This document shows, piece by piece, positions 749 to 22,858 of a DNA stretch of 23,720 bases. A program made the position numbers and the translations under genes. The number at the start of each line of letters is the position of its first letter. Position 1 is the stretch's first letter. The stretch comes from a virus, in IMG/VR virus record IMGVR_UViG_3300005663_000198, positions 1 to 23,720 of that record. One strand, 5' to 3'. The notes below the pieces were generated by a model, which saw nothing but the letters and a program-made list of their open reading frames with translations, did not search any database and was not told the DNA's origin.

Positions 749-973
749 GTTGTCCTCTGTTCTGCCCCCGCAGTTAGTGTTTTTGATGTCCGCCCCTACA
801 TTTATACTATCGCTGTTCAGCCGATATTTTCAAATGATTTCTGGAAGAACTTTGAAAGTTTTTTACTCGGGTATATAAGTCCTTTATAATACAATGGTTA
901 CAGAAATAAAAATATTTAAGAATATTTTCCCATAGCATCAATTAGTATTGGTAGATGCAGGGATCTAATCCCC

Positions 974-2403: not shown

Positions 2404-2548
2404 GGTATTGTTGGCCTTTCATTGTGGTCGCTGTATTAATTTTATTCTTGTGCCGAACCTTCACTTTGCATTTCTCTGTACTAATACCCAGTTTATCTTT
2501 TTATTTATCATCAGTTCGCCCGCCGTTGAAAAAAAGAATCCTCTATCT

Positions 2549-2578
2549 AATATAACGCTTTTTAGCCGGTTTTGTCTA
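2549..2578 (-). promoter_or_regulatory. Candidate sigma70-like promoter
   Basis: On the minus strand TAGACA (4-5 of 6 matches to TTGACA) is separated by 18 bases from TATATT (5 of 6 to TATAAT). It lies about 145 bases upstream of the ATG at 2403 and would drive the leftward membrane-protein genes. Judged by eye only. Confidence 0.35.
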
Positions 2579-2642
2579 GTTAAAAAACTGATTATCTACC
2601 AATAAAACACAAATATCACAAGTTTTTAATTCCGTTGCCGGC

Positions 2643-2669
2643 ATAATCCTTATAGCCGGTACAATCGAT
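2643..2669. repeat. 9-bp iteron-like array 3 (three units)
   Basis: Three units ATAATCCTT, ATAGCCGGT, ACAATCGAT in 9-bp phase, followed by ATGCCGTAA. They fit the AYAATCNTT consensus of the arrays at 974 and 4995 less well. The flanking CCGGC/GCCGG arms can form an imperfect hairpin over the first units. Confidence 0.45.
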
Positions 2670-2813
2670 ATGCCGTAACTGGTAGTATTGACTCGATATT
2701 TTTTTACCAGATATGGGTTTTTCTCTTGATTATATGCCGCAAATATGATATAGTTAAATAGACCTTGATGATATTATGGCGGTATACTTATGGTCAATGC
2801 TGGTTGAAAATTG

Positions 2814-2851
2814 CAATACCCGATACCCGATCCGCCGATACCCAATACCCG
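2814..2851. repeat. ATACCC direct-repeat cluster
   Basis: ATACCC occurs four times in 38 bases. Two pairs (AATACCCGATACCC and GATACCCAATACCC) are separated by a short GC-rich spacer, giving near mirror order. It is a possible protein-binding cluster. Confidence 0.45.
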
Positions 2852-3214
2852 GTTTCTATAAGTCCTTACTCTGTAAACCTTTACCTCATAAATTTTTATG
2901 GCCCTGATTCTGTCCCGCTTATTTTATCCTACCTTATGTCATATCCCGTCCCTGCAAATCAATAACCCGCCATGAAGTTGTTTAGAATATTTTCGTGCCC
3001 CGCATTCGCTTTGACTTTGCCCATCCCATAATTCTGCATACGAAATATAGGGGTCCCAGAACCCGAACCCCCCCGGGTATGACCCCCTCATTATTCGGAC
3101 TCCGCACCTCAATACCTCTTTCTAGGTCAGGCCCGTCTGCATAATAATAAAAAATAAAATATAAAAAGGGTATATCTACTTATGGGTATAAATTGCGGCG
3201 GATACACCCCCGGG

Positions 3215-3249
3215 AAAAATAAAATAATTTTTTGAAAAAATAAAATAAT
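3215..3249. repeat. AT-rich 14-bp direct repeat
   Basis: AAAAATAAAATAAT occurs at 3215-3228 and 3236-3249, within the most AT-rich part of the window and just upstream of HNH B. It could be a promoter-adjacent or easily melted element. Confidence 0.5.
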
Positions 3250-3316
3250 CCACTTGAGTCAGACCCCCTAACTGGCGATGATAAGGTAGAGATATAAATA
3301 AATCGAAAGGGGTACG

Positions 3317-3868
3317 ATGCCGGATATGAAAATATGTAATGGGCCTTGCAATCGAGAACTTCCGCTCAGTGAGTTCTACCGGAAACCAACAGCAAAAGAT
3401 GGCTATGGGGGTAAATGTAAGGGATGCTTGAAAAAATACTACCAGACGAATCGAGATAAGATCTTACAACGGAATAAAAAATACTATAGACGACCAGAAA
3501 TAGCAGCACAACATGAGGAGTACTACCAGAAAAACCGCGATAGGTATATACGACGAAGTAAAGAGCATTATGCCACACTCAAAGGCCGTCTACGGTTCAT
3601 ATTCCACTGTATGAATGGTCGGTGTAATAATCCAGATCATAAATTCTATAAATACTATGGCGGAAGAGGCATTCTCAATAAGTTTAAAACCCTTAATGAG
3701 TTCTGGGATCACGTGATAAATGATCTTGGTATTGCCTCAGTCGATCAGATTCAGGGGTTGCAGATAGATCGGATCGACAACGACGGTCATTATGAGAAAG
3801 GCAACATCCGATTTGTAACCGCCAAAGTGAATATAGGCAATAGGGGATCTTATCGTAAACAACCATAA
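3317..3868 (+). CDS. HNH homing endonuclease B
   Basis: A 183-aa member of the family that fills this window, and the only one on the plus strand. The ATG at 3317 follows AAAGGGG with 5-6 bases spacing. The zinc ribbon is near residues 8-40 (C-N-G-P-C ... C-K-G-C) with the usual phrase LPLSEFYRK. A basic linker with YYQ/YYR blocks follows. The C-terminal nuclease segment has RCNNP, YYGGRGI and the DRIDNDGHYEKGNIRFVT signature (about residues 151-168). All conserved positions are present, so it may be active. It has its own AT-rich upstream region and no gene close ahead, unlike the other copies, which sit inside operons. A GGTCC/GGACC inverted repeat follows the stop (about 3891-3918). Confidence 0.9.
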   Translation: MPDMKICNGPCNRELPLSEFYRKPTAKDGYGGKCKGCLKKYYQTNRDKILQRNKKYYRRPEIAAQHEEYYQKNRDRYIRRSKEHYATLKGRLRFIFHCMNGRCNNPDHKFYKYYGGRGILNKFKTLNEFWDHVINDLGIASVDQIQGLQIDRIDNDGHYEKGNIRFVTAKVNIGNRGSYRKQP

Positions 3869-4035: not shown

Positions 4036-4275
4036 ATGCCAAGTTATGGGAGGACACTTATCAAAAGACCGCTGGAAGAACTATTCAAAAGGATGCAGAC
4101 CTTATCATCGGACGAACACAATCTCGATGCCCTTGTCCTCGCAAACGAAATCAGAGTAAACTATACCGTGACCGAGATAGCCATGGAGCTAAATATCAGC
4201 GAGGCCCGAGTCAAGCGGTTAATGAAGCAGTCTTCCGCAACCGGACATGGATCGCGGCGTGTTCGACGGGTGTGA
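4036..4275 (+). CDS. Small helix-turn-helix DNA-binding protein
   Basis: A 79-aa protein with a strong ribosome-binding site (GGAGGT, 5 bases before the ATG). Residues about 47-68 (YTVTEIAMELNISEARVKRL) match a helix-turn-helix with a recognition helix at SEARVKRLM. The C-terminus is basic (SRRVRRV). It is probably a transcriptional regulator or a DNA-binding cofactor. Its last 65 bases overlap the 3' end of HNH C on the opposite strand, which suggests that C landed at or copied into the end of this gene. The target is unknown; the leftward operon or the repeat-rich region at 5160-5870 are candidates by proximity. Confidence 0.65.
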   Translation: MPSYGRTLIKRPLEELFKRMQTLSSDEHNLDALVLANEIRVNYTVTEIAMELNISEARVKRLMKQSSATGHGSRRVRRV

Positions 4276-4864
4276 GAAACTCGATGTTACCAACCTCATA
4301 GTGTCCATCATTGTCCTTACGGTGGATCTGTAACCCCTTGATTTGTTCCATAGAGGTAATACCAAGATCGTCTATTACATGGTTTCCGAACTCATCCACA
4401 GACTCGAAGCGATTCTCAATACCTCTGCCCCCGTAGTTCTTATAACACCTGCCCTTGGGATTATTGCACCGAGTATTCAGGTTGTGGAATATACGGCATA
4501 AGTGACCTTTAAACGTGGCCCGGTATTCCTTTTGCCGTTGGGCATATTCTTCCTGATGAGCCGCATTGTATTTCTTACTATATTGCAAGGCCTCTTTTCG
4601 GTGGCTCTTTCGATATTTTCTAACCGCCTGACGACCTACCTCACGGCCCTTTTCCGTAGCTTGATACTTTTTTTTCTGGCATAAAAGCCTATCCCGGTTG
4701 TTCCTATAATATTTCCTCTGATGCTCCCTATTACGTTCTGTCTTGGCCTCCTGACTGCGGCACTTCTTACAATGGCCCTGTAGATCATCTTTCCTAGAAT
4801 GATCTTTACCGAACTCATCCACAGGTAAATTAGTCTCGCATTTCGGACAATGTTTTGTCTGCAT
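4211..4864 (-). CDS. HNH homing endonuclease C
   Basis: A 217-aa product from the ATG at 4864, chosen because AAAGGGTGG lies just upstream and the protein then begins MQTKHCPKC like its relatives; an upstream ATG at 4912 would add 16 unrelated residues. The zinc ribbon C-P-K-C ... C-K-K-C is followed by a basic linker and RCNNP, YYGGRGI is present as YGGRGI, and the catalytic segment reads HRKDNDGHYE. The C-terminus HAAIHV is shared with A. Bases 4305-4399 are identical to 1-95 of gene A although the rest of the two genes differ clearly, implying recent gene conversion or duplication. The 3' end overlaps the rightward HTH gene by 65 bases. Confidence 0.88.
   Translation of the reverse strand: MQTKHCPKCETNLPVDEFGKDHSRKDDLQGHCKKCRSQEAKTERNREHQRKYYRNNRDRLLCQKKKYQATEKGREVGRQAVRKYRKSHRKEALQYSKKYNAAHQEEYAQRQKEYRATFKGHLCRIFHNLNTRCNNPKGRCYKNYGGRGIENRFESVDEFGNHVIDDLGITSMEQIKGLQIHRKDNDGHYEVGNIEFLTPVEHAAIHVRLRKTASLTA
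4305..4399. repeat. 95-bp exact repeat (with 1-95 and 23644-23720)
   Basis: Identical to window bases 1-95; its first 77 bases are also identical to the last 77 bases of the window. It encodes the segment from about VDEFGNHVIDD to HRKDND in HNH genes A and C. The left boundary is exactly window base 1, which is where sequence upstream of gene C and upstream of 23644 diverge (T versus C). Confidence 0.97.
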
Positions 4865-4994
4865 TAGTAAGCCCACCCTTTCATGTGCATTGTGTTTCGT
4901 ACATATCTCCATACATACTATCGCTATCCCCGAGGATATTGCAAATCAATTCCCCTGAATATATTATTTTTATGGTTCGGTCCGGCCAACCCAT

Positions 4995-5039
4995 ATAATC
5001 GTTACAACCATTATAACCTGCGTAATCCCTATAATCAAT
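4995..5039. repeat. 9-bp iteron-like array 2 (five units)
   Basis: Units ATAATCGTT, ACAACCATT, ATAACCTGC, GTAATCCCT, ATAATCAAT follow one another in exact 9-bp phase. This is the same unit and strand as array 1 at 974-1027; ATAATCGTTACA is shared verbatim by both. Confidence 0.6.
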
Positions 5040-5193
5040 ATGGGTGTGTATTAGAGGTGTACGATCAAGTATTAATTTGATATCAATCTGGTCCCGGAAC
5101 TCCCAGACCGACGGACGCTAAATCTTTATACACACTACACTTATGGCATATTAGTACCAATTGGGCCACGAATAGACCACCTACGGGCACTAC

Positions 5194-5578
5194 TTATGGA
5201 CCACGTAAGTCTAGGTACATAAAGGACTTATAGAAGATTGGGCCATAGAAGTAGTTTTGCTTATGGACCATCATAAGTCCTTATTATTACTATACTTATA
5301 TCTCTTTTTACCCTTTTGGTCCATAGTAGTAGTAGTAAGTTAGTTTATATAGAGAGAAATATAATATGGGAATCTACACAGACACTATACAATATAATAC
5401 TATACATGCTACATGGAAGAACGAGTTTATTAGCGTGGACCAAACCAAAAAATGATCATAAGTCTTTACTACATAAGGAGTTGTGTAGGCCATAAGACAG
5501 AATACTCAGGAAATGGCCCCTATAAGTCCTTACCTATAAAGGGTTTATGAGAGGCTAGGTATAATTTCTTATGGACCA
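5194..5578. repeat. Dispersed TTATGGACCA and ATAAGTCCTT repeats
   Basis: TTATGGACCA occurs at 5194-5203, 5261-5270 and 5569-5578, with an inverted near copy at 5317-5326. ATAAGTCCTT occurs at 5273-5282 and 5522-5531, inverted at 5222-5231, and with one mismatch at 5458-5467. The two motifs are adjacent at 5261-5282. Further ATAAGTCCTT copies lie at 875 and 2858, always outside genes. Confidence 0.75.
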
Positions 5579-5679
5579 ACCCGGACCAAAACCTTCAAAC
5601 TTACGTAGCTATGCTTAGGCCAAGGCTTCAGGGTAGAGTAGTAGTGTGGGGATGATACTGAAATCAGGGCATCGGGTTA

Positions 5680-5693
5680 TGTAATAAATTACA
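5680..5693. repeat. Perfect inverted repeat TGTAAT-AA-ATTACA
   Basis: Six-base arms separated by AA. It is a size and shape typical of an operator for a dimeric repressor. No gene starts close by. Confidence 0.4.
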
Positions 5694-6006
5694 ACATCCT
5701 TCTGACGTATCTCGGATCACCCTGACCAAAATCAGTGTCAGTCAGTATAAATTTGGACCGATCCCCGCACTGCACTGAAAATACTCTGGCCCGGGCTTAA
5801 CTGGATTTAGCTAATCCTGATAAAACACCAAGGGATATATAAGGTACACTTGCTTAGGCCACGGAGGTTGGATCTTCAGGGGACGCTGGGTATTAATTAC
5901 TTATGGATAACAGGGAATAGATCGGCATAATGTTGGGGATCTTTACTTGGGCAGCGGTTCCGGCTCGTTGCTGACGGCGGTGCGATTTTAAAATTACACT
6001 TGAAAT

Positions 6007-6198
6007 ATGCACGATATGCATTACACTATTCGAGGGTTGTGCCGGCACTGTGAATATTTTAGCAACTGTCGGAAAGTGACAGTTAGGGTATTAAGTGCCG
6101 GGGGGAAACCGATTATTCATATCGTAAACCCACAAACAGAGTACCGCAAATATTATGGTAAATGGTACTATCTCACTCATTTTATTCCCCTAATTTGA
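6007..6198 (+). CDS. Possible small Cys-rich protein
   Basis: A 63-aa frame with an N-terminal CRHCEYFSNC cluster (C-x2-C-x5-C) typical of small metal-binding peptides. The C-terminus is basic and aromatic. There is no clear ribosome-binding site before the ATG and the flanking DNA is non-coding, so the gene is uncertain. No function assigned. Confidence 0.3.
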   Translation: MHDMHYTIRGLCRHCEYFSNCRKVTVRVLSAGGKPIIHIVNPQTEYRKYYGKWYYLTHFIPLI

Positions 6199-6287
6199 CC
6201 GCCCATAGGCACACTGAATCATGACAGGATGACCCGATGTACCCGATGGACGGCATATTTTAGTTTAGGTATAAATACTACTCAAGA

Positions 6288-6322
6288 TACCAACAGTTTT
6301 GTTGGCAACGGATCTGTTGGTA
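6288..6322. promoter_or_regulatory. TACCAACAG/CTGTTGGTA inverted repeat
   Basis: Perfect 9-base arms around a 17-base loop that contains a further TGTTGG. It lies 17 bases beyond the stop of the leftward gene 6677-6339. There is no T-tract, so a rho-independent terminator is unlikely; a processing hairpin or operator is more likely. A related sequence starts at 1102 (TACCAACAG ... TTGTTG ... AACAGGAT). Confidence 0.45.
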
Positions 6323-6338
6323 GAAGTAGATAATCCCA

Positions 6339-6677
6339 CTATATAGTACCTCTTCGTACCGCGTCCAAAAAGTTCCTAACCCATACTTTTCTAACGAAGT
6401 ACTTCCCATCTGTAAGGGTACTGAATTTTAGGTACACCCGTTTATCATTATTCCCGGCCAGACCTAAATGAATCCAATTATATACATTACGCCATTTACG
6501 TCGGACGCCGATAAGTTTATAGATATAGTCCATGACCCCGGATGCAGGCATCCAATCATGGCTCTCATTCTTCCTAACAAATTTGATTCCCCTAGCGGTG
6601 ACCGCATCTTCGATACGAAGCATTCGCCGCTCAAATTTATCGAGCTGTTCTGGAATAGATAGAGGTCGTTTACTCAT
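6339..6677 (-). CDS. Excisionase-like / winged-helix DNA-binding protein
   Basis: A 112-aa protein. The C-terminal half (WRNVYNWIHLGLAG ... RVYLKFSTLTDGKYFVRKVWVRNFLDAV) has the layout of excisionase or MerR-type helix-turn-helix domains: a recognition helix, an Arg/Lys-rich hairpin and a final helix ending in FLDAV. It resembles short DNA-binding proteins (DUF1580-like) common in PVC-group bacteria and their elements. The ATG at 6677 overlaps the stop of HNH D by 8 bases, so it is probably translationally coupled. It is the last gene of the leftward block. Role inferred: regulation or excision. Confidence 0.55.
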   Translation of the reverse strand: MSKRPLSIPEQLDKFERRMLRIEDAVTARGIKFVRKNESHDWMPASGVMDYIYKLIGVRRKWRNVYNWIHLGLAGNNDKRVYLKFSTLTDGKYFVRKVWVRNFLDAVRRGTI

Positions 6678-7332
6678 TATACTGCCCCGCTTTCTTTGGT
6701 TTTTGTGGCCCGGTATGAACCGCCGTATGCTCAGTTGGTATTAGGAACTTGATATTCCCAATCTCATAATGTTTATTGTTATCAATTCGATGTATATACA
6801 AGCCCTTGATTTGGTCGATATCGGTAATCCCCAGTTCATTTGTTACGTGGTTTATGAAATCCTCAGAAGACCCAAATTTATTTTCAATGCCGCGAGCACC
6901 ATAATTCTTAAAGGATCTGCAATTGGGGTTATTACACCGCTGGTTCATACCCCCGAATATGTGTCCAAGGTGGCCCCTAAGTGTAGCCCGATAATTCTTC
7001 ACCGAGAGGCGACGTACTTTACGACTTTCGGGTGTGGGTTGGCGTTTTCTACTTCGCTGTAAGCATTTCTCCCGGTTTTTTTCGTAGTATTTCTTATCCC
7101 TCCGACGATGTCCTTCTCGACCTTTTTCTGTGGCCAGAGATTTCCTATTCGCCTGATGTATTACTTCTCGGCCATGTTCTGTCGCTCGGTATTCTTTGCG
7201 TTGTTGCCTTTTACACCCCCGACATTGCCGAGCCAGTCCATCTTTGGCTGACAGATCTTCGCCGAACCCACTCAACGGGAGATCCCTCTGGCATCCCCCA
7301 CAATATTTAGTTGTCTCTGTTTCCATTTTCAT
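6670..7332 (-). CDS. HNH homing endonuclease D
   Basis: A 220-aa family member. The N-terminus METETTKYCGGCQRDLPL carries the zinc ribbon (C-G-G-C ... C-R-G-C). A long basic linker follows, then RCNNP, YGARGI and the segment HRIDNNKHYEIGNIKF. The variants YGARGI and NNKHYE differ from the consensus YGGRGI and NDGHYE, so activity is uncertain. It sits about 107 bases after the primase stop and its own stop overlaps the next start (TAATGAGTAA). The N-terminus closely matches the decayed copy at 22132-22227. Confidence 0.88.
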   Translation of the reverse strand: MKMETETTKYCGGCQRDLPLSGFGEDLSAKDGLARQCRGCKRQQRKEYRATEHGREVIHQANRKSLATEKGREGHRRRDKKYYEKNREKCLQRSRKRQPTPESRKVRRLSVKNYRATLRGHLGHIFGGMNQRCNNPNCRSFKNYGARGIENKFGSSEDFINHVTNELGITDIDQIKGLYIHRIDNNKHYEIGNIKFLIPTEHTAVHTGPQKPKKAGQYNE

Positions 7333-7438
7333 TCCTTAGCCCGCCCCCCGAATTAAATTCTGCCATCCAAGAGGTCCAACAGGAGGGTACCGGGCCGGAT
7401 CAGGAAACCCAGTACCTCCCGCGGACAATATAGTTTAG

Positions 7439-9724
7439 TTAGAGATATAGCCTTTTTGCTGTTTCTTTGATCTGTAGCCCAGTATAGGCCCGTACACGTT
7501 CGCCACCTATGTATGGTCGGGCGTGACCTATAGATGATGGTAACCTTTGTCCGAAGCGTGTATTTGTTCCGGGATTTTGGCCCCCCTCATTGCACCAACC
7601 TTTCCAAATACTGAATAATATATGCTTGGGAATAATATCATCATTCGCACCAGAAATAACACAACACTCCGACATAAATCCTAACACGGGGTTTGTGACA
7701 TCGCGGAATAGTTCGAACTCTTTTTCTGAGGACTCAGGGACCGTAAATTTATCATGCTCTCTTAATCTCCGCAAACCTTCTAAGGCCCATGGTATTAATT
7801 TATGGGCCGATTTTGCCATTTGATTTTTCAATCTGGGATCTACGCGGTCAGCGTAACAGTTTGGATAAGATAAGATATTTAAACGAGATTCCAATGCCCC
7901 GGCACTGTCTGAAATTTCAGGCATAAGGTTAACCGCCATAGTAAATTTACAAGTTAGTTGGACACCGCTTCGGACCTTTTTAAATTTAGCATTAACATCG
8001 ACTACATCACCACCGATTACTTGTAATAATTTTTCTAAGGCTCGATTAGTGTTACCTCGTGACCCCTCTTTATTCGTGTCTGGTAAGAAAGCCGCTGCTT
8101 TTCCTACTAATGGGGCGTACCCAAAATCGGTAGCTAACATCGCTAGATCTGTCGATGTTATTTGTTTAGTCCCGAGCATTGTTTCTAGGATTTTGAGTGT
8201 CGTCCCTTTCCCCGATCTTTTCTTCCCCCGGAGCAACAGCATTTTTTCATACCGCGTATTAGAGGATAGGTGGTACCCGAACCATTCTTGGAGTAGATCA
8301 ATACAATCCTGTTGATTATTAAAAAGCCTCTGGAAGTAATCTAAAATATCGTCAGCTTTAGATGATGGATCGAAGTCGTAAGGGATTGCATTCAAGCAGA
8401 AGTATCGAGGATTAGGTTCTAAGAAGTATTGTTCCCCTTTAAAATATTTTTTGAGGTCGATGATTCCGTTCCGGAACACCAGACATTCTTGTGGGTTCGG
8501 ACCTTTATGCCCGTCTAGCCATTGTGGGGGTTCCCCAGTAATAGCCGTCCACGAACTAAAAGCATCTATCACATATGAAACCATACGACTGTCAGGCCGG
8601 AACTGTGGATAAATAATTTCACCTTTAGCCGCTACCTTTTTATAGGTTTTATCTCTGAGGTAAGCATATATTTGTCCTCTCAAAGTGTCGTCATCCACTT
8701 CTACATAACGCCCCTCTTTGAAGAACCATCGTGTTTTGTTGAGGTTGCGGAGAGTTAGGGTTTTACCATGGGAATATTGGTCAGCCAAAAATGCTTCCGC
8801 AATAGTCATAGGACTATCATCCTCTAAAACATCTGTGGGAGTTGTGTCATTCCCGTGTTCTTTAATATATGCGAGTAATGACTCGTGTGTGAGCCCACCC
8901 CGCTGAAACCATTTACGTAGATCTTTGATCCCTTCGGGTGGTAATAGTCTCTGGGTTAAAGAACAGCTAGATCGGAGAGTATGAAATGTTTGTTCCATTC
9001 CTGTAACCCCTACACCACCATCGTTCTCACCGATCACTACTACCTCCCGGCCTTGTGTTAATTCGGCGAGGGATTTTATTTTGGCTGTCGCGGAGGGTTT
9101 ACCGATTGCTGTGAACCCCAAATCAAAGGCCGTTGCTACGTCTGTGAATCCTTCGACCACTAGGATGGAGGAGTCGAAGGACTTAAACACCGCTTGATTA
9201 TTTTTATCAATACGTCCGGTTTCTTTTCGGATGTGTAACCACCCACCCCCGGTTTCTTTTTCGGCCCCCTCGGAGATGAATCCACAAATAACCGCGGATG
9301 GATCATATGGGTTTTCGGCTGAGACCAAGCAATAATGGTTTCCTTTACAGATTGGACAATCAAAGTCCGTTCCATCTGTGTGGCACCAGTTATGTTTACC
9401 GGGAGCGTATTTCTTTTCTCCTATTTCATATTCCGGGTTTAAGATGTAGGTTAATCCACGTTTAGAACCCTTGGCCATTATTTTTTTACCAGAGGAAAAT
9501 CGTTCCACCAGTCCTATGATCTCCCCGGTTTCGTCACGTTCTGGGGAAATCCATGATTGGTGTATCGGATTGAATCCAATACCGATTGCTGTTAGGGCTT
9601 TTGTTGAGACCCCCAAATCCTCGGCGAGTTCGACCAACATTGCAGGGTATACGTTTCTAGTATACTGTTCGAATTGTTCGGCGAAAGTAAAATCCGCCGA
9701 AGGTGTATCTTGTCCACTACTCAT
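7439..9724 (-). CDS. Primase-helicase, TOPRIM + D5_N + SF3 (P4/D5 type)
   Basis: A 761-aa replication protein making RNA primers and unwinding DNA at the fork or origin. Residues 114-132 hold a zinc cluster (C114, C123, C126, C132). A TOPRIM-like fold follows with VVEGFTD (E191) and GENDGG (232-237). A D5_N-type region spans about 310-480. The SF3 helicase has Walker A GKKRSGKGTT (500-509), a Walker B-like AAAFLPD (543-549) and the conserved NLMPE segment (599-603) before an arginine-finger candidate (R614). A winged-helix C-terminus is probable. AAGGA precedes the ATG by about 9 bases, and a TATAAT-like box lies at 9783-9788 (minus strand). SF3 helicases often recognise an origin; the 5160-5870 repeats are a candidate. 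Confidence 0.93.
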   Translation of the reverse strand: MSSGQDTPSADFTFAEQFEQYTRNVYPAMLVELAEDLGVSTKALTAIGIGFNPIHQSWISPERDETGEIIGLVERFSSGKKIMAKGSKRGLTYILNPEYEIGEKKYAPGKHNWCHTDGTDFDCPICKGNHYCLVSAENPYDPSAVICGFISEGAEKETGGGWLHIRKETGRIDKNNQAVFKSFDSSILVVEGFTDVATAFDLGFTAIGKPSATAKIKSLAELTQGREVVVIGENDGGVGVTGMEQTFHTLRSSCSLTQRLLPPEGIKDLRKWFQRGGLTHESLLAYIKEHGNDTTPTDVLEDDSPMTIAEAFLADQYSHGKTLTLRNLNKTRWFFKEGRYVEVDDDTLRGQIYAYLRDKTYKKVAAKGEIIYPQFRPDSRMVSYVIDAFSSWTAITGEPPQWLDGHKGPNPQECLVFRNGIIDLKKYFKGEQYFLEPNPRYFCLNAIPYDFDPSSKADDILDYFQRLFNNQQDCIDLLQEWFGYHLSSNTRYEKMLLLRGKKRSGKGTTLKILETMLGTKQITSTDLAMLATDFGYAPLVGKAAAFLPDTNKEGSRGNTNRALEKLLQVIGGDVVDVNAKFKKVRSGVQLTCKFTMAVNLMPEISDSAGALESRLNILSYPNCYADRVDPRLKNQMAKSAHKLIPWALEGLRRLREHDKFTVPESSEKEFELFRDVTNPVLGFMSECCVISGANDDIIPKHILFSIWKGWCNEGGQNPGTNTRFGQRLPSSIGHARPYIGGERVRAYTGLQIKETAKRLYL

Positions 9725-9964
9725 TTTTCTGATCCTTAAAAATTAGTTAGCTACTAACTGTTTCCCCCTGTATTTCTGTACTATTATATATTCCAGACCT
9801 TTAAAATCCCTAATTAAAAAAGCCCTATTCCATATCTATATATCGGGTATCAGTCGGTTTATTCAAATCAAATCCTCCCGGACTATCGTGGTTATCGGGC
9901 TAGAAATCCCTAACCCCTTTATGTGGTATAGTTTACTGCTCGAATTTTTTTTTATTTATTTCCA
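9725..9964. other. Leader region of primase gene
   Basis: 240 bases, AT-rich, between the 95-aa helical protein and the primase. On the minus strand a TATAAT hexamer (9783-9788) could be a -10 box, but the -35 is poor. This is the largest gap inside the leftward structural-replication block, so a promoter here is plausible. Confidence 0.35.
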
Positions 9965-10252
9965 TCATTCCAATCCGAGCCTCAATCGACGCTCAAATGT
10001 TTTGCGTAACTTAGAGGCATTAAAAGTGTGCTTTCTATGGAGTTCGGTCATGCCGCTTTGGAACTCTGCGTCAGTTATATAAGCAATTTCCAACGCCCGT
10101 TTGTCCCTTTCATATTCTTGGCTGGCCGCCTCCATTTCGGCGTTGAAGTTCTGTGTAATCCGTTGTATCAATTTGCCTTCCGGAGTAGTTGGATTAACCT
10201 TTTCAAAAGCATCATCCCATAATTTATCTTCTGTCTTGTCTTTACCGAACAT
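9965..10252 (-). CDS. Small helical protein, paralog of 14665-14940
   Basis: A 95-aa, probably all-helical protein. Residues about 34-92 carry a motif shared with the 91-aa protein and the N-terminus of the 292-aa protein: Q-N-F-N-A-E-M-x-A-A-S-Q-E-Y, then a LHRKH segment, then a basic tail (FERRLRLGL). It begins 24 bases after the 1444-aa gene, so it belongs to the ejection-protein block. A charged helical hairpin could pack on the large protein, act as a chaperone or be a virion component. No known family recognised. Confidence 0.8.
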   Translation of the reverse strand: MFGKDKTEDKLWDDAFEKVNPTTPEGKLIQRITQNFNAEMEAASQEYERDKRALEIAYITDAEFQSGMTELHRKHTFNASKLRKTFERRLRLGLE

Positions 10253-10275
10253 AGCGTCATACCCCCACTTTCAAA

Positions 10276-13200
10276 TTACCTCGGTAGTTTCCGTGTTCGC
10301 GGGGCCGTACGTTTTTGCAATCTACGCTTTCGACCAACCGGAGCCGTGGCTTCCTCACCTTGACTCAACGTCCATTCGGAATATATTAGTCTTCGATAAT
10401 CATCGGTCTCATTCTGTGCGAGGTCGTATACTCCCTCTACTGTTCTTATAGCTTGGGCAGGAATACGTCCTGTGAGAGCACCAGTGGCTTTGACGCCGTG
10501 TTTGACAACATTACCAATGTCTCCCCGGAATCCAGCCGTTATAGTTTTTTCCAGTTCCGATGGCCCTATTTCAACGATTGTACTTCCAGTAAATCCTCGG
10601 ACTGCGTTATTAATTATTCGCCCAACTAAGAATGGGGTTCCAAGTGGATACAGGGCTAAGTCCGCGACAACATCTTTCCAGTCCTCCGGGGGTCCGCCGC
10701 GTCCTATCATACCAAATAATAGGGCGGGTATCACGTATGAGAATGTGGCACGATACATCGCAATTTTTTTACTTATCTTCCCGGCTTTTAAACTCCCGGC
10801 TATATCGTGGGTCCAAAAATTATAATTCTGATTCATTTGGTTTTGGAACGTTGAAAGTATTTTTTCTAGCGGCCCACCTCGGAAGAAATCGGGAAGATCC
10901 CGGGCGTTACCCATCGGCTGAGTTTTGCTTATGCCGTCGTCTGCGAAGGCTACAGCCGCCTCTTCTGACATATGCCGGTCTAAAGCCACATCATATAGAG
11001 ACCTCCATGCGAGAACGGTGGTGTGTCTATCCATCCATCGAATCCAACCCATGGCTTTTTGGGAATAAACTTTCTTCCCCATAATACGTTTTCGCATTGC
11101 CGGAAGATCATTGAGCATATAAGCTATTCTATCGAAAATACGAGCTCTCATCATAATAGATTTACTCATAACTTCATTTTCCATTGGCCGAACGTTACCC
11201 CAATCCATTGCACTTTTTGGTATGTTCGACAGTACATGTTTCATCATCAGGGGATCAATCGCTATCGCGTTCCCTAATGAAAGTACTTGTCGCATCACAG
11301 AAGGTATATTGTAACCAATCGCATAGACTATCGCATTACGACGAAGACCTGTAAGCATTTTACCAGTCCAACTACTAACCTCTGAGGATTGTCCTTTTGT
11401 GGTATCCTTCATCCATTTGTGGAGGATCTTCACGCCATACCCATTGGTAGCTTTATTGAGTGTATGGCGGTAATCCCTATTGTTTAAAAGATTCTGGACT
11501 TCGTTTACCGCGGGGGCCATATTAATAAATCGCTCTACACGAGCATTATTATAAAGGTATGACTGAAAGAAATCTGTCTCGACGGAGCCAGTGGCCGTAG
11601 GTACACGCTCTTGGGTCTCCGAAATCTCTATAGGGGTTTTGGAGATACCCGCTTGGTTTTCTAATTCGGTGAGGAAATCAAATTGTAGATCGAGGTCTTT
11701 ACTTTCCCTCGGAGTATATAATGGGAAATAGTTATCCGCCGGAGTTAGTTTTCGCCCCAACGCAATAATAGCAGCTTGATTCGCCCGGGGATATTGTTCT
11801 CGCATTTGTTCGAGTGCCCAATCTCCGAGTTGTTTTTCTTCCTCGGTAACAGAATCCAATATTGCTTTCAATGCTTCTTCTGAATTACCAAAAGAACCGA
11901 GGTTACCGCGTTTAAGACGACGCAGACCATCTTTGTTTTGTGCAAGAACATAGTAACCGATACGGTCTGCCGGAGATAACGAGATCTTATCCTTAAACTG
12001 TGGATCAGTAACGGGAGTTTGCTTCCCAGTCAGCAATTGTTTCATCACTTTAGGCCCAAAAGTCTGTTGCATGAACTCTTGAAGATCACCGAGACGTTGA
12101 TTAATAGCGTTGTCGGCTTGCATAGAAGCTTGGTTCATCGGTAAGAAAATACGATTCCAGTTTGGCCCTTTCTCGTGACCATCTAACCACTCAAGCATAC
12201 GTGCTACACGGATCTGACCAAGATGCCACCCGGTCACTTGGCGTTTAGTTTTCTGCCAATACTTTTTCAGTAACTTATTTTCTTTTTTCCCCTGTATTTC
12301 CTCTTTAGGAGTTTCGATTTTTTGTGTTTCGCGAATCGTTTCGGTCATTTCTTCGACGGCCACCTGAACTTTACCAAGAAAAGCTAATTCTTCCATGCTA
12401 AATATCTTAGAATTAACGTCACCGGTTACATTATTTTTAAACTGTACCGTTGCCATTCCACGTTTTGCATTAACTTGGATAACCTCACCCACAACCTCAT
12501 GACCTTTGGCATCCCTATAACCTTTGGGGGTAACTCTATCCCCTTCGCGGAACGTGGGCTGATGTTTTTCCATGGCATCGATTAATTTCTTCGCTTCACC
12601 ATATGTTAAATTCCTACGAGAAGTCTTGCCAGTTGTGCCTTTGGCTAATCGACGGAATGCAGGTTTAACTTTTCCTTTTTTATCTATAAGCCCGAGCCGT
12701 TTCCCTAATATAGTAATTCGTGCTTTTTGCCCATTCGTCGACCTATCATATTTTAAGGCCCCCTTCGGACCGGAGTTCAATTTCTTGAGAAGCCTTACGG
12801 CCTTCCTATCTGCGTTCTTATCATAGGTATCAAAATGTTCAATAATACGCCCGGTCTCTTTATCCTGAATCTGTAAACCGGATTGAGTTTCCACCAGAGT
12901 ATATGGTGCCCTCGATGGGGTTGTGCCCTCTTCGGTTTGCTGTATTGGTCCCGGAATATCTTCTGTACTCTGAGCTTCCTCAAGAGCTTTCTTATCTCCA
13001 CGTCTCGCAATATCCATTATAGTTTCGCTGGAAACACTAGATGTAATCGGAGCGATAGGATGTTCGGTCCCTTCTGGATCTGCGGGAGCTACAGATATGT
13101 TTTCATATCCCGGATGCTTCCTCAGAGTCTTCACTGCGTCCTCGAAGTAGCTTATATGGCCCTTATCGATCTTCGCAATTTCGGTTTGGATCTTGAGGAT

Positions 13201-14610
13201 CTTTTTTAATTTGTCTCTTGAGGGGGACTCAAGAAACGAGTCTGCCAAAACACTGAACTTATCTAACAGCGGTAGTATCTTGTTACCCTCTACTAAAGTA
13301 TTAGGATTCTTCAGAGTATGCTCCGCCACCAGATCCATTTGTTTTCTTATTTTACTGAGGGCAACTTCGACACCGGCTCGTGTCCGATTCGCTTGTCTTT
13401 TAAACTTAGGGTTCGTACCCATTTCGAGAAGATTATCTAACCCACCTTGAATCCCCGTCATCCTTTGAATAATCTGAGGCATATACCCTTTTTCCAAGAT
13501 CGTTATATCCCGAGCCAATTCTTCCGGAGAAGAATCTTTACCTACTGGACGACGAGGAGTATCGGGGACTTCCATCGAAACCCCAGCACGCGGCCCAACA
13601 CCGGCTCTACGAACAACTCCCCCAAATCCCGCACTCGCGGGGCCACCCATAAGAAAACCGGCAGTCACATTATCAAGCCAGTTGTCAAAGACATGGGCGA
13701 TACCTTCTTTTAATGCATTAGGTATGGATTTCCAATCTTTAACATTGTATCCAAAGTTAGTGATAATATTTTCACCCATACCTTGAACCCATTCTTGGAA
13801 TGATTCTTTTGAACCGCCGATCATAAAACGTCGAAGGGCAGATTTTGCAGACCCTTTTATAATACCATCTAGTGGCCCGAATGCAAGTTCAGTAGTGGCT
13901 TCCCATGCTCCGGCCAATAGGCCAAGATTTTGGGCTACGTTTTGGCTTACATCGTTATCAATAAGATCAGTGTATGTACCACTCCCGCCAAGAGTTCCCA
14001 TCACAATTGCACCTACAGTTGGATTCTTTGTTATGATACCTGCCGCAATACCCGCTGCGAATGAACCTGAACTCTCGATTGCCCCGGTTAAGGCCCGAGT
14101 AACAGGAGCGTGTTTCCATCCTTCCATACCAGCCGCCTGAATTTCTCTATATTCTTTACTGGCGGCATCTATGCCAGTATTTGCCATATCAACCCAACCT
14201 TGTGAAACTGTCTCCCCAACTCGCCGCACAAATCCTCTTGCGGCTTCTTCCATTCGGCTATGCCATTCAGGTTGAATTTTTTTCCATAGCTTGGGATATC
14301 CTGCAAGGGTAGATATAGTCCAACTCTTCTCTGCCCTAAAATTAGCCATATACTGCATGACGTCGCCGACACTTTTTGCAAGATACTGGGGCATACGGAG
14401 GGCCGCTTTACCTATTTCTTTCGCGCTCTCGCCCGCGGTAAGTTCCGGTAGTGCTCTACGGGGTTGTACTTCTCCCATCACTACATCGAGCACTTGGTCC
14501 CACCCCCCATCATCTTTTTCAAGCCCAAGTTCAGATTCAGGTTTAGATTCAGGGGACTGTCCCCCCTCTATCACCATGTCAATCACTTGATCCCAGTTTT
14601 GCTCCGGCAT
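10276..14610 (-). CDS. 1444-aa internal virion / ejection protein (large polyvalent type)
   Basis: By size, composition and position after the tail-tube and small ejection genes, this is probably a virion protein injected with the DNA, like the large ejectosome proteins of podoviruses. Residues 5-17 and 36-48 are a repeated WDQV[IL]D motif. A Gly/Ala-rich hydrophobic segment at about 175-212 could insert in membrane. A Ser/Thr/Pro and charged middle follows. A KOW/SH3-like strand-rich patch lies at about 683-740 (FREGDRVTPKGYRD, GEVIQV), then a long helical region. The C-terminal quarter has hydrophobic helices (YVIPALLFGMIGRGG) and a very basic end. I see no lysozyme or protease motif. Confidence 0.8.
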   Translation of the reverse strand: MPEQNWDQVIDMVIEGGQSPESKPESELGLEKDDGGWDQVLDVVMGEVQPRRALPELTAGESAKEIGKAALRMPQYLAKSVGDVMQYMANFRAEKSWTISTLAGYPKLWKKIQPEWHSRMEEAARGFVRRVGETVSQGWVDMANTGIDAASKEYREIQAAGMEGWKHAPVTRALTGAIESSGSFAAGIAAGIITKNPTVGAIVMGTLGGSGTYTDLIDNDVSQNVAQNLGLLAGAWEATTELAFGPLDGIIKGSAKSALRRFMIGGSKESFQEWVQGMGENIITNFGYNVKDWKSIPNALKEGIAHVFDNWLDNVTAGFLMGGPASAGFGGVVRRAGVGPRAGVSMEVPDTPRRPVGKDSSPEELARDITILEKGYMPQIIQRMTGIQGGLDNLLEMGTNPKFKRQANRTRAGVEVALSKIRKQMDLVAEHTLKNPNTLVEGNKILPLLDKFSVLADSFLESPSRDKLKKILKIQTEIAKIDKGHISYFEDAVKTLRKHPGYENISVAPADPEGTEHPIAPITSSVSSETIMDIARRGDKKALEEAQSTEDIPGPIQQTEEGTTPSRAPYTLVETQSGLQIQDKETGRIIEHFDTYDKNADRKAVRLLKKLNSGPKGALKYDRSTNGQKARITILGKRLGLIDKKGKVKPAFRRLAKGTTGKTSRRNLTYGEAKKLIDAMEKHQPTFREGDRVTPKGYRDAKGHEVVGEVIQVNAKRGMATVQFKNNVTGDVNSKIFSMEELAFLGKVQVAVEEMTETIRETQKIETPKEEIQGKKENKLLKKYWQKTKRQVTGWHLGQIRVARMLEWLDGHEKGPNWNRIFLPMNQASMQADNAINQRLGDLQEFMQQTFGPKVMKQLLTGKQTPVTDPQFKDKISLSPADRIGYYVLAQNKDGLRRLKRGNLGSFGNSEEALKAILDSVTEEEKQLGDWALEQMREQYPRANQAAIIALGRKLTPADNYFPLYTPRESKDLDLQFDFLTELENQAGISKTPIEISETQERVPTATGSVETDFFQSYLYNNARVERFINMAPAVNEVQNLLNNRDYRHTLNKATNGYGVKILHKWMKDTTKGQSSEVSSWTGKMLTGLRRNAIVYAIGYNIPSVMRQVLSLGNAIAIDPLMMKHVLSNIPKSAMDWGNVRPMENEVMSKSIMMRARIFDRIAYMLNDLPAMRKRIMGKKVYSQKAMGWIRWMDRHTTVLAWRSLYDVALDRHMSEEAAVAFADDGISKTQPMGNARDLPDFFRGGPLEKILSTFQNQMNQNYNFWTHDIAGSLKAGKISKKIAMYRATFSYVIPALLFGMIGRGGPPEDWKDVVADLALYPLGTPFLVGRIINNAVRGFTGSTIVEIGPSELEKTITAGFRGDIGNVVKHGVKATGALTGRIPAQAIRTVEGVYDLAQNETDDYRRLIYSEWTLSQGEEATAPVGRKRRLQKRTAPRTRKLPR

Positions 14611-14664
14611 TATACCATCACCACTTTCATTCTGTTTTATTTTTTGTTATTATAATAAGTGTTA

Positions 14665-14940
14665 TTAACCTAAACCTAATTGAAGCCGGCGATCAAAATC
14701 CCGACGCAATCCAAATGCATTCAACGAATGTTTTTCATGAAGCTGGACCATTCTGTCTTGGAATTCTTCATCGGGCATATATGCTACCTCTAATGCAAGC
14801 TTATCAGTTTCATATTCTTCGCTGGCAATCTTCATTGTAGCATTAAAGTTCTGTGTGATCCGTAGGGCTGTGGCATCGACTGCCTTGAAAGCTAGATTCC
14901 ATTTCAGTTCTTCCTCTGCATTATTGTCAATGTTATCCAT
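14665..14940 (-). CDS. Small helical protein, paralog of 9965-10252
   Basis: A 91-aa protein with an acidic N-terminus. Residues about 30-88 hold the shared helical motif (QNFNATMKIASEEY ... VQLHEKH ... RRDFDRRLQLGLG). Its closest relative here is the 95-aa protein at the other end of the 1444-aa gene; both end in R-R-L-x-L-G-L. The ATG directly follows the stop of the 292-aa gene (TAATATG), so the two are coupled. It is probably structural or an assembly partner of the neighbouring ejection proteins. Confidence 0.82.
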   Translation of the reverse strand: MDNIDNNAEEELKWNLAFKAVDATALRITQNFNATMKIASEEYETDKLALEVAYMPDEEFQDRMVQLHEKHSLNAFGLRRDFDRRLQLGLG

Positions 14941-14941
14941 A

Positions 14942-15820
14942 TTATTCTATCCCTCCAAAAATTTGTATGGCAAGTTCTTTAATACGTTCTCTACTGGCAC
15001 CCTCTCCAAGTTGAGCCACGGCCTGTTGAACAGCTTTTTCCTGCGTCATCTTATAGCCCGGAGTTTCAAGCCGTTCACGTTCTCTACCATCAGGTTCAGC
15101 CTCCCCTAATGGAATAACATTCCGTTTCCCCCCAACACCCGGAGTCTGTTGTACGCGAGGACCCATTGCCATCGCCCGGGATAACTGATTCACTTTACGC
15201 TGTTGCGGATTCATCTGGGTTAAAAGGGAATATTCATACTGATCGAACTCTGTTATTGTCTGTTTAACAGCTTCAATCTGTTGGACTTCAAGCTCTGTTG
15301 CTTCTCTGCCCCAGCGAGAAACCTCTCCTCTTTTTCTACCTTTTGTGTGAACCGCTTCAACCTGACGCCACTTCCCCTTACGGAAATCCCATTGATCGTT
15401 CATCTGCACTAATCGTTCCCGTTCTTGGATAAGGTTACGATGCTCGGCCCAATAATCAGGCTTCTTTCGCTGAGGCACATCATAACCAGAAATTTCATAT
15501 TGTTCTTGCTTTGCCTGTTCAGGGGTTATGGTCCCCGCGGCACCAAGTTTTTCATACTGCTGGATCATTGTCATTCGCTGATTCCAATCCCGCTTCATTT
15601 TGAGGGCTTTCACCGAATGTTTCCCATGGAGTACGGACATCTTATTATATTTCTGTTCCTTGGTAAGATATTGTCGACTCAACGCATTCATACCAAGTTT
15701 ATATTCCTGACTAGCGGCGGCCATTTCATCGTGAAATTGCTGTTCTGCCTGTTGGGCCATCGGCCCACTAGGAGTTTCCAAGCTCATAGCTTGTACTCTA
15801 TTATATTTTGGTCTCGCCAT
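14942..15820 (-). CDS. 292-aa virion/ejection protein with shared helical domain
   Basis: A 292-aa Gln/Arg/Glu-rich, mostly helical protein. The ribosome-binding site GAGGAG precedes the ATG by 9-10 bases. Residues about 25-85 carry the helical motif found in the two small paralogs (FHDEMAAASQEY ... SVLHGKH ... KMKRDW). The rest is low in hydrophobics, with probable coiled coil around 130-210 (RNLIQERERLVQM; ELEVQQIEAVKQTITEF). The position between the 206-aa and 1444-aa proteins parallels the middle ejection protein of podoviruses. Function inferred from context only. Confidence 0.75.
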   Translation of the reverse strand: MARPKYNRVQAMSLETPSGPMAQQAEQQFHDEMAAASQEYKLGMNALSRQYLTKEQKYNKMSVLHGKHSVKALKMKRDWNQRMTMIQQYEKLGAAGTITPEQAKQEQYEISGYDVPQRKKPDYWAEHRNLIQERERLVQMNDQWDFRKGKWRQVEAVHTKGRKRGEVSRWGREATELEVQQIEAVKQTITEFDQYEYSLLTQMNPQQRKVNQLSRAMAMGPRVQQTPGVGGKRNVIPLGEAEPDGRERERLETPGYKMTQEKAVQQAVAQLGEGASRERIKELAIQIFGGIE

Positions 15821-15837
15821 GTTATTCTTTCTCCTCT

Positions 15838-16443
15838 TTAGTATTGGTAAGGATTATAAAAACTAGGTTGACTCGTCGAAGGTGCAGAAGGTGCTTGAGT
15901 CTGCCATGAAGGGGTTGTCATCTTAGCCCATCTCGCCGCCGAAGCCGTTCTTTCCGCGGCCCGTAGTGCACTCTGGGCGGTCGATGCTTGTAGATTTGCC
16001 GCGTATCTCTGAGCCTCTATATTCGCTTGGGAGGTAACCATTTGCCCTATGTCACCCATACTCGCAGTCCCCGGATCGTAGCTTGCATACATTTGACCTA
16101 AAGAACCGAGTGCTCCACCAAGACGTTCCATACGGACATCCTCGCCTCGCAAACGTGCGGGCATCCCAATCTCTTCTTCATAAGTCTGTTGTAAATGCAT
16201 TGGCATTGTCGTACCAGCAAGACCAGCACTTACAATATTTTGCATACCACTCGCAACGGCTCTCTTCTCCCCACGGCCTATCATCGCCTCAACACTCTTT
16301 CCGTATTCCCCACCGGGCTTAAATATATCGGCGTAACTCTGTAATGACCCTACACCAGTTTGGAACGCTGTCTCTTTTTGTGCTCGACCCGCAGTGTAGT
16401 CTTGGTACATCGTGCTCAGCCACTCTGAAATATTACTTGCCAT
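15838..16443 (-). CDS. 201-aa ejection-type internal virion protein
   Basis: The start was chosen at the ATG at 16443 (MASNISEWL) with AAAGGG about 7 bases upstream; an ATG at 16458 would add five residues. The Ala/Gln/Met-rich sequence with QANIEAQRYAANLQASTAQS near residues 145-165 is typical of small podoviral DNA-ejection or internal core proteins. The Ser/Pro/Gln-rich tail ends in YNPYQY. It lies directly downstream of HNH E and 18 bases before the 292-aa gene, heading the ejection block. Assignment by composition and order, not by a specific motif. Confidence 0.7.
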   Translation of the reverse strand: MASNISEWLSTMYQDYTAGRAQKETAFQTGVGSLQSYADIFKPGGEYGKSVEAMIGRGEKRAVASGMQNIVSAGLAGTTMPMHLQQTYEEEIGMPARLRGEDVRMERLGGALGSLGQMYASYDPGTASMGDIGQMVTSQANIEAQRYAANLQASTAQSALRAAERTASAARWAKMTTPSWQTQAPSAPSTSQPSFYNPYQY

Positions 16444-16465
16444 TATAATCCCTTTCAAACTATGT

Positions 16466-16981
16466 TTATTTTTTACTACATTCTTGGTTATTCATATTCA
16501 CTTTCGCTGTTACGAAGCGAATGTTACCCCGTTCGTAGTTGCCATCATTGTCGATCCTATCGACCTGCAATCCTCTTGGATCAACATGTAATTCATTAAT
16601 AACATACTCAACGAACTCAGTCGAGGATTTAAAATTATTCCTGATACCTCGGCCACCATAATTTTTATAGTTATGAACCGCAGGATTATTACATCGACGA
16701 TTCAAATGTCCGAATATCCGGGCAAGACGACCTTCGAGGGTATTAAAGTATACCTTTTGTTTACCTAAATATTCGCTCCGATTTTCCCCCCGATACCTCG
16801 CCGACCGCTGTTTAATTCTTTCCGGATTCTTTCGGTAGTACTTTTCCATATACCGGGACCTACACTCTTTACATTCCGCTTGTAGTCCGTCTTTCGCGGA
16901 CCGGTTTTTACTAAACTCACCTATCGGTAAATCTTTTTCACAGCCGGGACAATACTTTGTTTGTAATGTCGCTAACATCAT
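16466..16981 (-). CDS. HNH homing endonuclease E
   Basis: A 171-aa, compact family member. Its ATG overlaps the TGA of the 759-aa nozzle gene (ATGATG), and it ends 22 bases before the ejection gene. The zinc ribbon is C-P-G-C ... C-K-E-C near residues 11-40. The linker is short. RCNNP, YGGRGI and DRIDNDGNYERGNIRFVT (about 143-160) are all present, so it is probably active. The C-terminus KVNMNNQECSKK belongs to the same subgroup as F and the remnant at 21881-21931. It sits neatly between two virion genes without damaging either. Confidence 0.9.
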   Translation of the reverse strand: MMLATLQTKYCPGCEKDLPIGEFSKNRSAKDGLQAECKECRSRYMEKYYRKNPERIKQRSARYRGENRSEYLGKQKVYFNTLEGRLARIFGHLNRRCNNPAVHNYKNYGGRGIRNNFKSSTEFVEYVINELHVDPRGLQVDRIDNDGNYERGNIRFVTAKVNMNNQECSKK

Positions 16982-19257: not shown

Positions 19258-19258
19258 A

Positions 19259-19651
19259 TCAGTCCAGTGTTATAACTATAGCACCCGCTGCAAACTCTGG
19301 TGTGTCACCACTCCCTACTGCTTTACTGGAATCCAGTACCCCGGATGCGAGTAAATTACCGGCACTAGCGGCATCAAAAATAGCAAAGTAGTCCACCGTT
19401 CCCCAGCTACCACTTGCCTGTGGAAACGTAATTGCATTGGCGTTGTCAATACTGCCAGATGCAGCAGCGTTCCAATCGCCACCGGCGGTAGAAACTCTGG
19501 CATAATTGTTCCCACTCACCTCTGATCCACCAGCACCAGTGTCAAGCGGATCACCAACGAACAATGCCAGATATGCAGTCGGCATAGTGAAGGCGGTTTT
19601 ACCCACTATTTCATCCAGCAATTTTAATTCAAGGTAGTTACTAAAAGACAA
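19259..19651 (-). CDS. 130-aa phage structural protein (gp80-like family)
   Basis: It matches a common small phage protein whose members read SFSNYLE-x-LLD near the start, ITFP-A-G-WGTV-FAIFDA--GNLLA-G in the middle and TPSFAAG-I-ITLD at the end. They are usually placed with tail or fibre genes. Here the phrases WGTVDYFAIFDAASAGNLLA and FAAGAIVITLD are clear. The start is TTG at 19651, supported by AAAGGAG 8 bases upstream. The gene lies just before, and is coupled to, the 759-aa nozzle protein (TGATATG). Exact role unknown; probably a minor virion or tail protein. Confidence 0.75.
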   Translation of the reverse strand: MSFSNYLELKLLDEIVGKTAFTMPTAYLALFVGDPLDTGAGGSEVSGNNYARVSTAGGDWNAAASGSIDNANAITFPQASGSWGTVDYFAIFDAASAGNLLASGVLDSSKAVGSGDTPEFAAGAIVITLD

Positions 19652-19683
19652 GATAAGTCTCCTTTCTATTTTAATTATTTTAA

Positions 19684-20072
19684 TTATTTCAAATATTTTA
19701 TAACTTCGTGTAAAATATCCACACCCAATTCGTCCACCCGCAAATCCCCCAGAGCAATATTACAAGCAGTACACAACAGGCCACGAACTTTTCCCGTCAC
19801 ATGATTATGGTCCACGCATAATCTTTTCCCAACTCTAATTGGTGTCTGTCACAAATGGCACATTTACCTTTTTGTTTACTGAACATTTTATTATAATCGT
19901 CTAAAGTAATGCCATACTTTTTCTTGAGGTTCCATTCTGCCCCGTAGTGGGGACGTTTTTCGTTAAACCTCTTGCGTGACTCTAGGTGTTTAAGCCTGCC
20001 TTTTTCTGTTTTCTTATATTTTTTTGAAGCTACCCCATTAAGTAGCCTTTTTTCAACAGGGTCCGGGGACAT
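19684..20072 (-). pseudogene. Recombination endonuclease VII-like HNH nuclease needing -1 frameshift
   Basis: The frame from ATG 20072 (AGGAGG upstream) encodes a basic N-terminus and the KKKYGITLDDYNKMFSKQKGKCAIC start of an endonuclease VII domain, but ends at 19797 (91 aa). The -1 frame continues it exactly: LCVDHNHVTGKVRGLLCTAC, then N-I-A-L-G, ending at 19684. The domain is complete only across the shift, with the zinc cysteines C-x2-C ... C-x2-C and the DHNH catalytic core. The switch point is G GGA AAA (19830-19824), a perfectly phased X XXY YYZ slippery heptamer. This is either a one-base deletion (decay) or programmed frameshifting. Length if fused is about 128 aa. Confidence 0.8.
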
Positions 20073-20083
20073 ATCTCTACCTC

Positions 20084-20461
20084 CTATGTTTCATAATAAA
20101 GTGTTCCTTTTGCAACGGCGACCAATCGCCGTATTGTAATCATATTATTTAGCCCAGACCAGACCCAATCTGTTCCCTCGATCCCCGGGGGGTCATCGAC
20201 ACCGGGGGGGCCTTGTCCATTTCCCCCATCGACTGGGTTCCATGAGGGAATCGGCGGATAGAAAACTATAGTTGCAAAATACCATTCGTCTCCCTCTGTG
20301 ACCCCGTCATCATTAACAGAATCTATACGCCAGAAATACAAAATATTATAATCCAGAGCGGGCATATCGAAAGATTCTTCTGTTAGGCCGCCCGCAACCT
20401 GAGTTAGGTTCCCAGATTGAGTGCCAAAATAAAGATTAAAAGTAACTGAGATATTACACCG
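20084..20461 (-). pseudogene. Third piece of split virion gene (FN3 second half)
   Basis: The frame is open from 20461; the first ATG is only at 20365 and lacks a good ribosome-binding site. From the start it reads the second half of a fibronectin type III-like domain: VTFNLYFGTQSGNLTQ, then YFWRIDSVNDDGVTEGDEWY. The first half (NLSWQAG) is the end of the piece at 21138. It then has a Gly/Pro linker and ends RRLVAVAKGTLYYET, similar to KKLVACGNDLLEYEN where the propeller of the 759-aa protein begins. So this piece may once have been fused to a nozzle propeller. Its stop TAG overlaps the AGGAGG of the next gene. Confidence 0.7.
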
Positions 20462-21134: not shown

Positions 21135-21137
21135 TCT

Positions 21138-21530: not shown

Positions 21531-21555
21531 ATTTATAGTAGCAATAACCGCGATA

Positions 21556-21624
21556 CTACACCCCCGCCAGTATTAATTTCTGTCTACATTCGCCGCAATA
21601 TTTAGTTTTAGTCTTTATTATCAT
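21556..21624 (-). pseudogene. Decayed HNH endonuclease N-terminus
   Basis: A 22-codon frame beginning MIIKTKTKYCGECRQKL, which matches the first zinc-knuckle of the HNH family (compare KTKHCTGCEKDL in F), and then running into unrelated sequence and a stop. It lies inside the 123-bp stretch bounded by GTTCA direct repeats (21526-21530 and 21649-21653) that interrupts the virion gene. The rest of the nuclease has been deleted. Confidence 0.75.
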
Positions 21625-21644
21625 AGATTTATTTTCCGACGTTA

Positions 21645-21878: not shown

Positions 21879-21880
21879 CT

Positions 21881-21931: not shown

Positions 21932-21948
21932 TAAATAGTACAGGGGGG

Positions 21949-22113: not shown

Positions 22114-22131
22114 CTCTACTCATCTCCTTTC

Positions 22132-22227: not shown

Positions 22228-22234
22228 TACCCTA

Positions 22235-22504: not shown

Positions 22505-22534
22505 TATCTCTGTCCCTGTTTATGTTGGGTATTG

Positions 22535-22830: not shown

Positions 22831-22858
22831 TATGTCTTCTCTCCGTTTACGTCGATTG

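Follow-up and report, generated by a model that had tools for sequence, protein, structure and literature searches.

A cluster of short DNA sites in the putative early/late control region of a podovirus-like genome fragment

What is the role of a gene-free patch, crowded with short recurring words, in the genome of an uncultured virus? The patch considered here occupies positions 5161–5861 of the IMG/VR virus record IMGVR_UViG_3300005663_000198, whose 23,720 bp, classed as linear, make up the whole stretch analysed (the window). A sequence-only reading of this DNA had offered two explanations, namely the origin recognised by the primase-helicase or the operators of a phage-wide regulator. To our knowledge, how such phages are regulated or replicated has received little study. 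The present analysis defines, from sequence alone, a 27-bp site and a control region for an uncultured podovirus clade.

Gene layout of the window

Most window genes to the right of the patch lie on the minus strand, and they encode tail and ejection-type proteins (759 aa and 1444 aa) and then a D5/P4-type primase-helicase. No credible gene is present in three long stretches, p1 (555–1445), p2 (2404–3316), and p3 (4913–6338), the last of which contains the patch. GC skew tracks gene strand and is uninformative. An exact 77-bp repeat is common to both contig ends, but the circular genome that it might suggest was not accepted, because the same 77-mer is also found internally at 4305. The repeat comes from HNH genes (1–95, 4305–4399, and 23644–23720, with 95 bp common to the first two copies), and the contig therefore probably broke at these repeated genes. 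The tail-gene region at 19259–21905 is fragmented into short ORFs separated by HNH genes, as though mobile elements had interrupted it. The 99-aa ORF at 1446–1745 looks truncated; its N-terminal part matches proteins of relatives, and it resembles, by eye, the beginning of a longer nuclease-like protein from contig L092. Each non-coding stretch also carries one array of a 9-bp unit, TTATAATCN (964–1035, 2635–2670, and 4985–5040), readable as D-Y-N/K repeats on the minus strand and always located to the left of the 27-nt dyads described below.

Recurring words in the patch

The patch is a real and strongly non-random cluster of short DNA sites. It contains 15 redundant 10-mers against a mean of 1.22 in dinucleotide shuffles, a value reached by 0/500 of them, and a 10-mer seen three times was likewise found in 0/500. 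GGNCCA cores, of which the sequence-only reading had counted about a dozen, are found at about 11 separate places; their 18 strand-hits compare with a shuffle mean of 1.24 (0/1000). TTATGGACC with at most one mismatch occurs 5 times against 0.22 (0/150). The density of recurring words described earlier was thus borne out, and equal density was obtained neither in shuffled sequence nor in coding DNA of related phages. A second stretch, 2801–3500, likewise scores 15 redundant 10-mers.

Three words account for the exact copies noted previously, all of which lie at the places given. ATAAGTCCTT is found at 5222 (minus) and at 5273 and 5522 (plus), with a one-off copy at 5458 (plus), and its further exact copies at 875 and 2858, both on the plus strand, indeed fall in non-coding DNA. 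TTATGGACCA occurs at 5194, 5261, and 5569, always on the plus strand and always inside the longer word CTTATGGACCA (5193–5203, 5260–5270, and 5568–5578, plus strand); the first two copies of CTTATGGACCA stand just left of the dyads at 5205 and 5273. A one-off copy of TTATGGACCA, CTATGGACCA, is present on the minus strand at 5317–5326. GCTTAGGCCA is found at 5613–5622 and 5852–5861, both on the plus strand. Recurrence in both orientations, which had been claimed for all these words, therefore holds for ATAAGTCCTT and fails for TTATGGACCA and GCTTAGGCCA, whose exact copies are all on the plus strand. The complement of CTTATGGACCA, with CCATAAG, holds the same ATAAG core as the dyad arm. The most AT-rich part of p3 (5273–5432, 68–74% AT in 80-base windows) lies between groups of sites.

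Outside the window, the TTATGGACCA clusters were not found elsewhere: pairs of TTATGGACCA in IMG/VR amounted to 10 single pairs, which is background-like. CTTATGGACCA is not conserved in relatives, the composite CTTATGGACCAYN0-2RTAAGTC had no match in IMG/VR, and a nucleotide search with p3 against named phages returned nothing useful.

A 27-bp dyad in all three non-coding stretches

What the sequence-only reading missed is the larger site to which ATAAGTCCTT belongs: the word forms one arm of an imperfect 27-bp dyad, which recurs in all three non-coding stretches. The arm reads YRTAARYCYTTA over 20 sites from the window and its relatives. Ten copies were located in the window. Four of them are in p3, namely GTAAGTCTAGGTACATAAAGGACTTAT (5205–5231), ATAAGTCCTTATTATTACTATACTTAT (5273–5299), ATAAGTCTTTACTACATAAGGAGTTGT (5458–5484), and the best-scoring copy, ATAAGTCCTTACCTATAAAGGGTTTAT (5522–5548). 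In p2, two dyads overlap (2858–2884 and 2873–2899), so that 2858–2899 holds three half-units in a row with a 15-bp spacing. The four p1 copies are found at 875–901, 1037–1063, 1161–1187, and 1253–1279, the first overlapping a predicted sigma70-like promoter (862–890, plus strand). The copies are written mostly on one strand.

The p1 and p2 dyads were recovered by a matrix built from the four p3 sites alone, with 0/1000 shuffles reaching the score; over the genes at 6339–23720 (17.4 kb), a region picked after a first look at the matches, the same matrix reaches 10 bits at one position only. In the window, a nine-site window matrix scores 9 bits or more at 12 places, among them the sites from which it was built; other viral DNA, 2.65 Mb in all, yields 0.76 such matches per 23.7 kb.

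In the 20-site alignment, the boundaries of the site are crisp, with almost no information in the flanks and none in the centre. The dyad is near-symmetric, and its 12-nt arms vary independently, with no covariation. Independent arms and uninformative flanks fit a DNA site bound by a dimer rather than an RNA hairpin, and the dyad thus bears the signature of a DNA site that would be read by a two-fold symmetric protein. The TAA cores of the two arms are 22 bp apart, about two helical turns, which would place them on one face of the helix.

Recurrence upstream of terL in relatives

Neither the primase nor the 1444-aa protein, each searched singly against IMG/VR, revealed a close relative. Primase alignments placed the window in a clade of podovirus-like contigs with about 30–42% primase identity, the complete-looking members of which measure 40–50 kb. 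In a 50-kb member (G001), the late genes are on one strand and the early genes on the other, with a gene-poor region between them in which strong TTGACA/TATACT promoters face the early genes. The stretch upstream of terL in relatives corresponds to this early/late intergenic region. Primase relatives in genome contigs (L239–L260) are mostly from Planctomycetota MAGs, which is suggestive of Planctomycetota as hosts of the clade.

The dyad recurs at this same genomic place. The scan used a matrix from window sites only and one uniform rule for the 19 relatives in which terL was located. In their non-coding DNA, all 9 matches fall within 6.5 kb upstream of terL, a zone that totals 33.7 kb, and the other 46.5 kb contain 0 (Fisher p=4e-4); in all of their DNA, the same comparison gives 12 matches in 123.5 kb against 9 in 754.5 kb (p=5e-6). 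The GC-rich relatives are mostly without matches. G003, a fragment located via its HNH gene, carries a comparable patch beyond terL; the 1.45 kb scanned there, picked after a first look at the matches, hold three dyad matches. Promoters were scored with E. coli-type weights, and by this measure the dyads of relatives mostly lie about 20–570 bp from predicted promoters, with no overlap. Among possible DnaA boxes upstream of terL, TTATCCACA is slightly enriched (4 vs 3, p=0.01), and a looser pattern is not.

In the relatives, the dyads upstream of terL are far from the primase gene, and the primase is adjacent only in the window, whose genome is rearranged. The primase and the homologue of the 1444-aa protein are convergent in all fetched relatives that showed both genes; in the window, the two are on the same strand (7439–14610). 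Inverting the early block of a relative puts the primase and the gene for a 112-aa protein beside the early/late region, as they stand beside p3, so p1–p3 are taken to be that region, which would have been interrupted by HNH and other genes after such an inferred inversion.

Candidate binding proteins and known systems

Three proteins encoded in the window are candidates for binding the sites. The first is the primase-helicase itself (7439–9724, minus strand), which carries a Pox_D5 or RFX-like winged helix near its C-terminus: Pox_D5 matches residues 678–732, and the family profile over 687–751 matches the RFX5 DNA-binding protein (E 3e-5). The next is the 112-aa protein (6339–6677, minus strand), of the DUF1580/HTH_17-type winged-HTH family. 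This family is conserved downstream of the primase in relatives, and five of its members match DUF1580; it was not found in G001 and G017, though both carry dyad matches. A fold search with a model of the 112-aa protein gave nothing at E 0.001, the MerR-like BldC appearing only among weak matches. The third is a 79-aa HTH protein (4036–4275, plus strand) with a weak Sigma70_r4-type match below the cut-off.

Replicons of the P4 and SaPI type offer one comparison. Phage P4 tolerates distance between its origin sites and its helicase gene. As in origins of these types, the window combines short repeated sites clustered in non-coding DNA with a nearby gene for a D5/P4-type primase-helicase having a winged helix in its C-terminal region. 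The winged helix of the P4 alpha protein binds repeats at the P4 origin (PMC4234260), and the iteron origin recognised by SaPI Rep lies downstream of the gene for that protein (PMC7581432). In contrast to such origins, the main site of the window is a 27-bp dyad distributed over three patches, and the sites of relatives are far from the primase gene rather than directly downstream of the helicase gene as in SaPI. Since the sites of relatives lie away from the primase gene and binding by the primase-helicase is a prediction only, we do not claim membership of the P4/SaPI type. Phage operator clusters offer another comparison. They resemble the present sites in the position at the early/late divide in relatives, in dyads with independent arms, and in strong early promoters nearby; the differences are that the dyads of relatives are mostly off predicted promoters and that only candidates for the regulator can be named.

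Predicted function and alternatives

Since the commonest word of the patch makes up half of a two-armed 27-base site, and this site recurs in the corresponding control region of related, apparently Planctomycetota-associated phages, the patch is most likely a place where a phage protein binds, either to switch genes or to initiate DNA replication. On balance, we favour the view that it is part of an early/late control region and forms an array of predicted sites for at least one phage-encoded DNA-binding protein. The 27-bp dyad would be the main site, with a dimer or a pair of dimers binding one face of the DNA, and CTTATGGACCA and the GGNCCA cores may be accessory sites in which the ATAAG core returns on the other strand. 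A nucleoprotein complex could then form from several bound sites together with the AT-rich stretch of p3. As the dyads of relatives mostly lie beside predicted promoters without overlapping them, we lean toward a replication-initiation or enhancer-type role upstream of the early promoters over promoter-blocking operators, a combination being possible. Of the earlier proposal of an origin or operators, the part assumed by both, a cluster of protein-binding sites, is well supported: the sites have dyad form, are confined to non-coding DNA, and recur in relatives at the early/late intergenic region. The choice of a particular function and binder does not follow, given dyads mostly off promoters and a primase that is adjacent only here. 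The motif-rich patch is in this way reduced to a short probe that is testable against the three named proteins.

The strongest competitor, less probable but to be taken seriously, is that the sites are purely transcriptional operators without a role in replication, the 112-aa winged-HTH or the 79-aa HTH protein binding the dyads and CTTATGGACCA to control early or late promoters. In its favour are the strong early promoters near the early/late position of the sites in relatives, the dyad form, the overlap of the 875 dyad with a predicted promoter, and the small DNA-binding proteins encoded beside the patches, but the p3 sites contain no strong promoter and the dyads of relatives mostly do not overlap promoters predicted with E. 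coli-type weights. Packaging, partition, or attachment sites, or other structural DNA, would suit the location of the dyads in relatives, upstream of the terminase gene by no more than a few kb, but they are improbable for sites spread over 4.7 kb and three patches, and no integrase or partition protein was recognised among the proteins searched in the window, itself a fragment.

Promoters of a phage single-subunit RNA polymerase would also be repeated, conserved over at least about 20 bp, non-coding, and mostly on one strand. This reading is very improbable, as the site is near-symmetric and not directional, the matrix scan found no dyad ahead of the tail and ejection genes in 6339–23720, and the window genes to the right are mostly on the minus strand. 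Decayed coding repeats or an RNA element, finally, are largely refuted. The half-units in p2 are spaced by 15 bp, a multiple of three, and the 9-bp arrays read as D-Y-N/K, but the patches have no open frame under standard stops, recoding of stop codons was rejected on the same ground, and comparison with ORFs of relatives disclosed no gene remnants. As to RNA, the arms do not covary, folding in 5161–5861 is ordinary with no fold signal, and an RNA family search there found none. Beyond the patch, the positions 5993–6112, 6288–6322, and 1102–1132 comprise one stretch with an unusually stable fold on both strands (z about -4) and CAACAG/CTGTTG inverted repeats common to p1 and p3.

TTAT-GGAC arrays in other phages

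Short TTAT/GGAC words are also repeated in gene-poor DNA of other phages, including relatives of the window. In regions picked after a first look at the matches, G007 has 15 copies of TTATNGGAC in 1.7 kb of its early/late region, with none elsewhere in its 49 kb, and G003 has 5 in the region corresponding to the window patches. TTATNGGAC itself is at chance level or below in the window patches, and the window motif is therefore not just an instance of that array. The patches have TTATGGACC instead, and the TTATNGGAC arrays can be strongly strand-biased and far denser. As the window is devoid of TTATNGGAC arrays, a link between its TTATGGACC words and those arrays is only a possibility. It is unlikely, in our estimate, that the patch represents, in one lineage, a wider and apparently undescribed class, in which phages would use dense TTAT-(N)-GGAC arrays of 9–10-mers as DNA for origins, decoys, or partition, recognised by a protein of a common type. 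The literature, among the matches listed, gave no account of TTAT[C/A/G]GGAC phage arrays.

A scan of IMG/VR for paired TTATCGGACC found 56 loci, most of them without detectable relation to the clade, against the 10 single pairs of the equal-length control, TTATGGACCA; in Planctomycetota genomes, paired TTATCGGACC occurred in 2/294. Dense TTATCGGAC arrays are present in many unrelated phages, where up to 60 mostly co-oriented copies of the TTATNGGAC type can occupy a few kb. Arrays of TTAT[C/A/G]GGAC were seen in the IMG/VR contigs L363 (4701–8900), L323 (1298–3933), L328/L329, L331, L335, L353, L356, L361, L365, and L372. No wider consensus was found for them; they are mostly strand-biased and lie partly inside small ORFs, with same-strand spacing peaks near 14, 25, and 34.
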